Assembly: GCF_007991735.1 (NCBI RefSeq)
Contig: NZ_BJYX01000004.1
Span: 1-64,000 of the forward strand
Length of the DNA stretch: 64,000 nucleotides
DNA from: Terrabacter aerolatus
Lineage (GTDB): Bacteria; Actinomycetota; Actinomycetes; Actinomycetales; Dermatophilaceae
Direction: 5' to 3'
In this document: piece after piece, positions 15,626 through 37,549 of the stretch
Layout: every line of letters begins with the position of its first letter
How positions within the stretch are numbered: the stretch's first letter is position 1
Program-made: the position numbers and the translations under genes
Notes under the pieces: generated by a model
Told to the model about the DNA's origin: nothing
What the model saw: only the letters and a program-made list of their open reading frames with translations
The model's database searches: none

Positions 15626-15653
15626 TTGCCATAACTCATATATGAGTTAGCCT
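15626..15653 (+). promoter_or_regulatory. Predicted promoter of the HTH-MurA gene (-35 TTGCCA, -10 TAGCCT)
   Basis: TTGCCA (15626-15631), 16-base spacer and TAGCCT (15648-15653, TAnnnT). The -10 ends 7 bases before the GTG start at 15661, so the message is probably leaderless. The palindrome at 15632-15649 fills the spacer and overlaps the first two bases of the -10. Confidence 0.55.
15632..15649. promoter_or_regulatory. 18-bp perfect palindrome, probable operator
   Basis: TAACTCATATATGAGTTA reads the same on both strands. It is strikingly AT-rich for this chromosome and lies between the predicted -35 and -10 of a gene whose product begins with an XRE-type helix-turn-helix, so autorepression by that product is the simplest reading. 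This is inference from position and symmetry. Confidence 0.7.
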
Positions 15654-15660
15654 CGAAGCC

Positions 15661-17190
15661 GTGTCTCAGACCTACCTGACCCGGATCGGCGGACTCATCC
15701 GCGACGCGCGACGCCACAAGGGGATGACCCAGTCGGACCTCGCCGAGCTGCTCGGCACGTCCCAGGGCGCCGTGACCCGCATCGAGCAGGGCAAGCAGAA
15801 CCTCAGCCTCGACATGCTCGCCAAGATCGGTGACGCGCTCGACTCCGAGTTCGTCTCCCTCGGCCACTCCGGCCCGCAGCACCTGCGCATCGTCGGCGGC
15901 CAGAAGCTCACCGGCTCCATCGACGTCAAGACCTCGAAGAACGCGGCCGTCGCGCTGCTCTGCGCCGCCCTGCTCAACCGGGGCCGCACGACCCTGCGCA
16001 GCCTGGCCCGCATCGAGGAGGTCAACCGGATCCTCGAGGTCCTCGCCTCGATCGGCGTCCGGACCCGGTGGCTGCCCGACAGCAGCGACCTCGAGATCAT
16101 CCCGCCCGCCGAGCTCAACCTCGACGACATCGACGTCGCGGCGGCCCGCCGCACGCGCACCGTCATCATGTTCCTCGGGCCGCTGCTCCACGAGCACGAC
16201 AGCTTCCAGCTCCCGTATGCCGGTGGCTGCGACCTCGGCACCCGTACCGTCGAGCCGCACCTGGCCGCCCTGCGGTCCTTCGGTCTCGAGGTGACCGCGA
16301 CGCACGGCTTCTACGAGGCGCGCTCGGACCGCTCGGTCAATCCCGAGCGGGCCATCGTGCTCACCGAGCGCGGCGACACCGTCACCGAGAACGTCCTCAT
16401 GGCGGCCGCCCGTCACGCGGGTACGACGGTCATCCGCAACGCGAGCCCCAACTACATGGTCCAGGACCTCTGCTTCTTCCTCGAGAAGCTGGGCGTGCGC
16501 ATCGACGGCATCGGTACGACGACGCTGACCGTCCACGGCGTCGCCGAGATCGACGTCGACGTCGAGTACTCCCCCAGCGAGGACCCCATCGAGGCGATGA
16601 GCCTCATCGCGGCCGCCGTCGTCACCGACAGCGCCATCACGATCCGCCGCGTGCCCATCGAGTTCATCGAGATCGAGCTCGCCACGCTCGACGGCATGGG
16701 AATGAAGTACAACCTCAGCGGTGAGTACACCTCGGCCAACGGCAAGACCCGCCTCGTCGACCTCACGACGATCCCCGGCCCGCTGCAGGCACCGACCGAC
16801 AAGATCCACCCGATGCCCTTCCCCGGGCTCAACATCGACAACCTGCCCTTCTTCGCGCTCATCGGCGCCGTCGCCGAGGGCAGCACGATGATCCACGACT
16901 GGGTCTACGAGAACCGCGCCATCTACCTCACCGAGCTGACGAAGGTCGGCGCGAAGGTGCAGCTGCTCGACCCGCACCGCGTCATCGTCGAGGGCCCGAC
17001 CCGGTGGCGCGCGGCCGAGGTCATGTGTCCTCCCGCGCTGCGTCCCGGTGTCGTGGTGCTGCTCGCGATGCTCGCGGCCCCGGGCACCTCGGTGCTGCGC
17101 AACGTCTACGTCATCAACCGCGGCTACGAGGACCTCGCCGAGCGCCTCAACGCCCTCGGCGCGACCATCGAGGTCTTCCGCGACATCTGA
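15661..17190 (+). CDS. XRE helix-turn-helix fused to a MurA-like enolpyruvyl transferase
   Basis: A 509-residue fusion. Residues about 6-62 are an XRE/Cro HTH ('GMTQSDLAELLGTSQGAVTR'). From about residue 73 onward it resembles UDP-GlcNAc 1-carboxyvinyltransferase (MurA, EPSP-synthase fold). Residues matching MurA active-site positions appear kept: K93-N94 ('SKNAAVALL', E. coli K22-N23), C190 and R195 in 'GGCDLGTRTVEPH' (C115 loop), D393 in 'FPGLNIDNLPFF' (D305 region), 'YENR' at 416-419 and 'RGYE' from R487. It could therefore be an active enzyme, an enolpyruvyl-transferase-fold sensor, or both. The C115-loop downstream sequence departs from the usual ARPVDLH. GTG at 15661 is supported by a -10 box 7 bases upstream. 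It is probably not the housekeeping MurA, which lacks an HTH. Confidence 0.88.
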   Translation: MSQTYLTRIGGLIRDARRHKGMTQSDLAELLGTSQGAVTRIEQGKQNLSLDMLAKIGDALDSEFVSLGHSGPQHLRIVGGQKLTGSIDVKTSKNAAVALLCAALLNRGRTTLRSLARIEEVNRILEVLASIGVRTRWLPDSSDLEIIPPAELNLDDIDVAAARRTRTVIMFLGPLLHEHDSFQLPYAGGCDLGTRTVEPHLAALRSFGLEVTATHGFYEARSDRSVNPERAIVLTERGDTVTENVLMAAARHAGTTVIRNASPNYMVQDLCFFLEKLGVRIDGIGTTTLTVHGVAEIDVDVEYSPSEDPIEAMSLIAAAVVTDSAITIRRVPIEFIEIELATLDGMGMKYNLSGEYTSANGKTRLVDLTTIPGPLQAPTDKIHPMPFPGLNIDNLPFFALIGAVAEGSTMIHDWVYENRAIYLTELTKVGAKVQLLDPHRVIVEGPTRWRAAEVMCPPALRPGVVVLLAMLAAPGTSVLRNVYVINRGYEDLAERLNALGATIEVFRDI

Positions 17191-37531: not shown

Positions 37532-37549
37532 TATCTTGACGTCAAGATA
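37532..37549. promoter_or_regulatory. 18-bp perfect palindrome upstream of aconitase, probable operator
   Basis: TATCTTGACGTCAAGATA is a perfect inverted repeat in an AT-rich island 43 bases before the acnA start. It contains TTGACG on the acnA strand, which could be the -35 element. A dimeric repressor bound here would block aconitase transcription. Aconitase repressors such as the TetR-type AcnR are known in corynebacteria, but no regulator gene lies beside it here. Confidence 0.7.

Follow-up and report, generated by a model that had tools for sequence, protein, structure and literature searches.

Does an enzyme of cell-wall synthesis that carries a DNA-binding domain control its own gene? 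This question is raised by a locus in the 64,000-nucleotide stretch of Terrabacter aerolatus DNA analysed here as a whole (the window; contig NZ_BJYX01000004.1), in which a helix-turn-helix (HTH) domain of the XRE type is joined in a single gene to a MurA-like enolpyruvyl transferase, downstream of an 18-bp palindrome. Peptidoglycan synthesis begins with MurA, the enzyme that fosfomycin targets, usually drawn as a plain enzyme under feedback and proteolysis; in many actinobacteria, the sole MurA found apparently carries its own gene switch. The features of the locus are the following:

15626..15631, + strand: -35-like hexamer TTGCCA, from the sequence, shared by close relatives of the window alone
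15632..15649, no strand: 18-bp perfect palindromic putative operator TAACTCATATATGAGTTA, from sequence, conservation and co-variation
15648..15653, + strand: putative -10 box TAGCCT (TAnnnT), whose initial TA is the operator end; 7 nt to the start
15661..17190, + strand: XRE-HTH/MurA fusion gene, 509 aa, GTG start, from open reading frame, Pfam and NCBIfam
15697..15849, + strand: XRE HTH domain, residues 13-63 (Pfam HTH_3, E 2.2e-13; helices 2-19, 24-31, 35-42 and 50-60 in the structure model)
15763..15786, + strand: recognition helix, residues 35-42, from the model; Gly36 co-varies with operator bases 3 and 16
15850..15879, + strand: short linker, residues 64-73, from the structure model (65-68 of low confidence)
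15880..17178, + strand: MurA (UDP-N-acetylglucosamine, UDP-GlcNAc, enolpyruvyl transferase) domain, residues 74-506
16228..16230, + strand: Cys190, counterpart of the catalytic Cys115 of Escherichia coli MurA

The fusion is quite likely an active MurA that also represses its own gene and thereby holds its own level constant. According to this model, the N-terminal XRE domain would bind as a dimer to the palindrome (consensus TATCTCATATNTGAGATA; TAACTC..GAGTTA in the clade of the window), which overlaps the -10 of a presumably leaderless promoter, and the bound fusion would block RNA polymerase. Plentiful MurA protein would shut the gene and scarce protein would leave the promoter open, so that one protein and one site would keep the amount of the first committed enzyme of peptidoglycan synthesis steady. 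The computed evidence comprises the fusion, its operator and the conservation of the latter, the co-variation and joint loss of helix and operator, the single site per genome in the genomes searched, the catalytic residues and the status of the fusion as sole MurA. DNA binding, dimerisation and repression rather than activation are what we infer from it.

Both halves of the protein are recognised by profile searches, as the earlier note on this DNA had proposed: HTH_3 and EPSP_synthase (residues 79-496, E 3.2e-45) match within the same 509-residue frame. The N-terminal domain belongs to the XRE type, with its HTH_3 match and, in the orthologue alignment, an intact HTH with a conserved recognition helix. 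C.AhdI, C.BclI and HipB are among its PDB matches, and its score against the type II antitoxin profile TIGR03070 (Y4mF), 56.3 bits, is below the cut-off of 71.65. The enzyme half exceeds the cut-off of NF006873 (PRK09369 subfamily; 329.4 over 297 bits) and falls under those of the murA equivalog TIGR01072 (314.3 under 392.7) and of TIGR01356 (AroA, EPSP synthase; 61.1 under 287.25). When the structure model is compared by VIA-align, MurA structures are the top fold matches, above NikO (42.2) and AroA (at most 36.9).

The palindrome ends 11 nt before the fusion start codon and overlaps the -10. It had been described as lying exactly between the -35 and the -10, which needs correction, as the TA with which it ends also opens TAGCCT; the perfect 18-bp palindrome itself at 15632-15649 and the GTG 7 bases past the -10 agree with the coordinates. 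The spacer from TTGCCA to TAGCCT measures 16 bp, and the short distance from the -10 to the GTG leads us to expect a leaderless mRNA. At up to 3 mismatches, TAACTCATATATGAGTTA has no second site in the window (100 shuffles gave 0) or anywhere in the 4.42-Mb genome, where a degenerate form likewise finds this site alone and the search for further copies suggested earlier thus returned none. Perfect palindromes of at least 18 bp are not rare as such in the window (5, against about 1.2 expected) and, therefore, conservation must carry the argument for TAACTCATATATGAGTTA.

The orthologue set joins 70 sequences with the best 80 from named genomes, which cover Terrabacter, Knoellia, Janibacter, Phycicoccus, Ornithinimicrobium, Streptomyces, Kitasatospora and others, some genomes being present in both parts. 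Among the 144 orthologues with distinct 100-nt upstreams, the core CTCAN4TGAG is found with at most one mismatch ahead of 140, so that the palindrome is indeed conserved in front of orthologues, a point on which the earlier note had made its proposal depend. In the last 60 nt upstream, CTCANNNNTGAG is exact in 122 of 144, with one mismatch in 18 and with two or more in 4. Control stretches gave no exact match, and one-mismatch matches in 0/144 (+60..+120) and 6/143 (-260..-200); a few one-mismatch matches to CTCANNNNTGAG arise by chance, at atypical distances (L015, L105). The promoter layout was read in the 137 rows whose operator, with at most one mismatch, ends no more than 13 nt from the start codon. 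A TAnnnT sharing the final TA of the operator is present in 131 of them, at 6 or 7 nt from the start codon in 123 of these 131, and words resembling a Shine-Dalgarno sequence occur in 3/137. No conserved -35 hexamer was found across the 137 rows; a TTGCC or TTGCG ahead of the operator is confined to near relatives of the window (L003-L008).

At the scale of 21 whole genomes, TATCTCATATATGAGATA searched at up to 3 mismatches has exactly one site, just upstream of the fusion, in 16 of the 18 genomes that carry the fusion, and none in the three fusion-free genomes. A regulon extending beyond the own gene was considered and rejected, since neither the T. aerolatus genome nor any of the 16 fusion genomes that gave a match has a further site within 3 mismatches, although weaker sites may exist.

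The recognition helix and the operator vary together. Most rows have Ser at position 36 (TSQSAVNRIE). The final set comprised 133 rows with different MurA domains, Streptomyces-like rows having been thinned, and the operator could be placed in 123; among these, the variant TAACTC..GAGTTA accompanies Gly36 in 19/19 rows, as against 4/104 rows without it. Loci fetched after the Gly36 idea arose behave alike, with the variant site in 9/9 Gly36 rows and 2/47 others. On the MurA-domain tree, 8 changes of residue 36 and 10 of the operator are counted. These data indicate an HTH and an operator that evolve together.

Natural losses point in the same direction. In one genus (g22; L078, L248, L249, L254) the helix has the sequence MTGTDIEQIE or one like it, and the palindrome is absent; in genome G435 (L213) TSQ has become TQP, again with no palindrome, and two congeners (L204, L210) keep helix and palindrome, the latter with one core mismatch; G464 (L253) lacks the HTH, and the 462 nt upstream contain no palindrome. 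Altogether, the 6/6 rows whose HTH is damaged or absent (three lineages) lack the operator, and the five damaged-helix rows (two lineages) still keep a -10 TAnnnT at 6-7 nt. Among intact-helix rows, the operator was scored in 124/128. The four others comprise a site present but far from the assigned start (L068), a one-mismatch site missed by the scoring (L105), a site with two mismatches (L238) and an absent operator (L106).

Does the enzyme half still work? The earlier note listed counterparts of the MurA catalytic positions, which the residue alignment bears out: K22, N23, C115, R120, D305, N330-R331 and R397-G-Y-E400 are all present, and the catalytic or phosphoenolpyruvate (PEP)-site residues K22, C115, R120, D305 and R397 are found in 70/70 orthologues. 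Other MurAs were counted by TIGR01072 profile searches in 20, 43 and 62 genomes, of which 13, 43 and 59 carry the fusion; the fusion is the sole MurA found in 8, 30 and 39, that is, in 76 of 114 distinct genomes, G271 having been counted twice. Many of the 114 are drafts, and single-contig fusion-only examples are G048, G079, G213, G447 and G494. The first search also gave extra weak matches below 60 bits, probably AroA, and the later two list only E 1e-20 or better. Fusion-only genomes include damaged-helix members of g22 (G271, G494, G507) and the HTH-less G464, and MurB is present in 22/22 fusion-only genomes tested, 21 of them above the cut-off. Genomes without another MurA thus imply that the fusion would make enolpyruvyl-UDP-GlcNAc. 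Of the suggestion that this protein is also, or has become, a repressor of itself, the first part holds as a probable self-controlling DNA-binding enzyme, given the conserved operator, the 16/18 single-site genomes, the co-variation and the joint loss; a loss of catalysis, as the second part would have it, finds no support, since the enzyme half must work where the fusion is the sole MurA found.

The second, HTH-free murA that the note asked for in the genome of the window was found at C2:74505-75755 (G000, L092), and all 8/8 genomes of the genus with data have both the fusion and a canonical MurA. This canonical copy adjoins ATP synthase and cobalamin adenosyltransferase genes and has Asp at the Cys115 position, where the fusion has Cys; replacement of Cys115 by Asp in MurA lowers fosfomycin sensitivity. 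Some genomes show broken or neighbouring copies. In G094 (C1:1261840-1263365, L254) the fusion, the sole MurA found, is split over two frames, with error, pseudogene and frameshifting indistinguishable, and the gene is likewise split between frames in G211:C24 and G299:C1. G466 has a canonical murA in two pieces (C1:2441054-2441990, L264) and an intact fusion elsewhere, a possible decay of the canonical gene; that this is the copy of the atp-cobO locus was rejected, the fragments not lying beside those genes. In L094 (G021:C2:285361-304361), about 6 kb separate a canonical murA from the fusion, and a methylmalonyl-CoA mutase gene lies in this interval.

Several observations weigh against a self-repressing MurA as drawn above. 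The clearest evidence against a strict pairing of helix and operator comes from a small clade with an intact helix and a decayed operator, absent in L106 and partial in L100 and L015 (the latter from the same genome as L103). On the tree, helix damage and operator loss form a single supported pair. For residue 36, the independent-pair test has 5 supported pairs, which change the same way in 3.7 on average and the opposite way in 0 (median p 0.125), and with only 5 such pairs the tree-aware statistics for Gly36 and the operator stay suggestive. Moreover, Gly36 is not the whole code, as L011, L071, L201 and L256 have the variant site without it; three of them (L011, L201, L256) combine Ser36 with Thr39 or Gly39, so that residue 39 (Thr or Gly) seems to contribute to operator choice, L071 with Asn39 being the exception. 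In two fusion genomes, G009 and G213, nothing matches the consensus at up to 3 mismatches, the sites before their fusions (L014, L067) being 4 mismatches away. The low confidence of linker residues 65-68 in the model gives no sign of a rigid coupling between domains. On the enzyme side, S162-V163-G164, which we take to be the UDP-contact loop of MurA, is replaced by G-D-T in 70/70 fusions, as against S-V-G in 7/7 canonical MurAs compared, and E188, conserved in these seven, is replaced in 70/70; the acceptor is therefore deduced from genome content and not from the pocket.

Other explanations of the locus must be set against this background. The fusion may be a ligand-gated trigger enzyme, in which the state of the MurA domain (UDP-GlcNAc, a PEP adduct or UDP-N-acetylmuramic acid) governs DNA binding and the gene senses precursor supply, not only protein dose. 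We regard this as a serious possibility short of the favoured one: a sensor-capable enzyme and an HTH share one chain in nearly all operator carriers read, the linker is short and MurA closes on substrate binding, but the linker is of low confidence in the model and plain concentration feedback explains all the sequence data. More tentatively, the committed peptidoglycan step of many actinobacteria might be run by a metabolite-gated enzyme-repressor in which a single operator is occupied according to the catalytic state of MurA, flux reports directly to the sole-MurA gene and the remodelled UDP loop is part of the gating. Activation of the own promoter instead of repression is unlikely. Some XRE regulators do act as activators and, as the set lacks a conserved -35, the promoter might require assistance; yet the site spans the spacer and the first -10 bases, as expected of a repressor, and the damaged-helix rows that keep the -10 and have the fusion as sole MurA indicate that the promoter should work without HTH binding.

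It is rather improbable that the domain is no longer a MurA and has turned into a dead sensor or into an enolpyruvyl transferase that acts on a different nucleotide. The score below the TIGR01072 cut-off, the UDP-contact loop replaced throughout and the additional canonical MurA in the genome of the window would fit such a change, but not the invariant catalytic residues, the top fold matches, the many genomes with the fusion as sole MurA found or the MurB beside it in all those tested. Finally, the palindrome could be the site of another regulator, with the fusion HTH binding elsewhere or vestigial. BldM-WhiI footprints lie upstream of murA2 of S. venezuelae in the available part of the source (PMC4125116), which indicates that other regulators act on what is probably the fusion promoter. 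This reading is nonetheless very unlikely: the recognition helix co-varies with operator bases, the operator is gone in every row with a damaged or absent HTH, and a separate regulator would be expected to track the gene less closely than one site per genome in 16 genomes and none in the three without the fusion.

The enzyme-plus-regulator fusion is, then, real and widespread, and in all probability a MurA that represses its own gene. In the family, the fusion (E 1e-60 or better) occurs in 137/148 genomes, a number that includes the HTH-less G464 and the split G094; the only fusion-free genus is g21 (11/11 genomes), with two canonical MurAs in 3/3 genomes tested. It is found in 93/296 genomes of the class (E 1e-150 or better), three of them with the gene split in two frames, and in 4/119 of the phylum, all four from the same class, with 95 genomes lacking any match. 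A conserved neighbourhood was rejected as a clue to function, no neighbour family being shared by more than 9/21 stretches when open frames of both strands, real or not, are counted. Elsewhere in the window, a second perfect, AT-rich palindrome (TATCTTGACGTCAAGATA, 37532-37549) lies about 40 nt ahead of a minus-strand gene (from 37489) whose product begins like AcnA aconitase, and looks like the operator of another regulator.

The Streptomyces fusion is probably murA2 (SCO5998; sven5810/vnz_28735), because an aconitase gene adjoins both. SCO5998 (MurA2) stands next to the aconitase gene SCO5999, and a DmdR1 site is predicted in the intervening DNA (PMC12161575, in part). Of 55 Streptomyces-titled loci, 26 have the start of an aconitase gene no more than 3 kb from the fusion, and such a gene lies 0.8-3.2 kb off and divergent in 3/3 longer presumed-Streptomyces stretches, Pfam-confirmed in one; L158 has none within 3 kb. 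A SigB-dependent promoter of SCO5998 emerged from a heterologous screen (PMC8346170, in part), and its sequence has no match at up to 3 mismatches in L158, the sole locus tried. In five Streptomyces-like loci (L041, L043, L045, L049, L057) a recurrent stretch like TCACCCGAACGGAC precedes the operator and may correspond to the published BldM-WhiI site. Overexpression of murA2 failed to reproduce the whiI overexpression phenotype (PMC11005364, in part). The available parts of these four sources (PMC12161575, PMC8346170, PMC4125116 and PMC11005364) treat murA2 as a cell-wall gene or second MurA and mention neither an HTH nor a self-operator. No description of an HTH-MurA fusion appeared among the literature matches listed, most subscription journals being outside the search, and the accessible portion of PMC12565409 on XRE motifs makes no mention of it. 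Known from sporulation work, murA2 deserves study as a regulator too. If the model is true, an essential cell-wall enzyme would be its own repressor with a one-site regulon, offering a clean model of enzyme-level homeostasis.

In comparison with known systems, the fusion differs from canonical MurA (TIGR01072, NF006873) by its N-terminal XRE domain, its own operator, a rewritten UDP-contact loop and a score below the TIGR01072 cut-off. PutA, BirA and NadR are trigger enzymes that unite an enzyme and a gene-specific DNA-binding domain in one chain and feed back on their own pathway. The fusion would resemble them in this architecture, both roles being deduced here from comparison, but differs in enzyme and fold, in a regulon that is apparently its own gene alone and in ligand control that is here only hypothetical. 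With XRE autorepressors such as HipB, the Y4mF antitoxins and the C proteins it shares the HTH type and a dimer-type palindrome within its own promoter, a like binding and repression being probable here from co-variation and joint loss; it is set apart from them by its score below the TIGR03070 cut-off and by the fusion to MurA with no toxin or restriction partner recognised.
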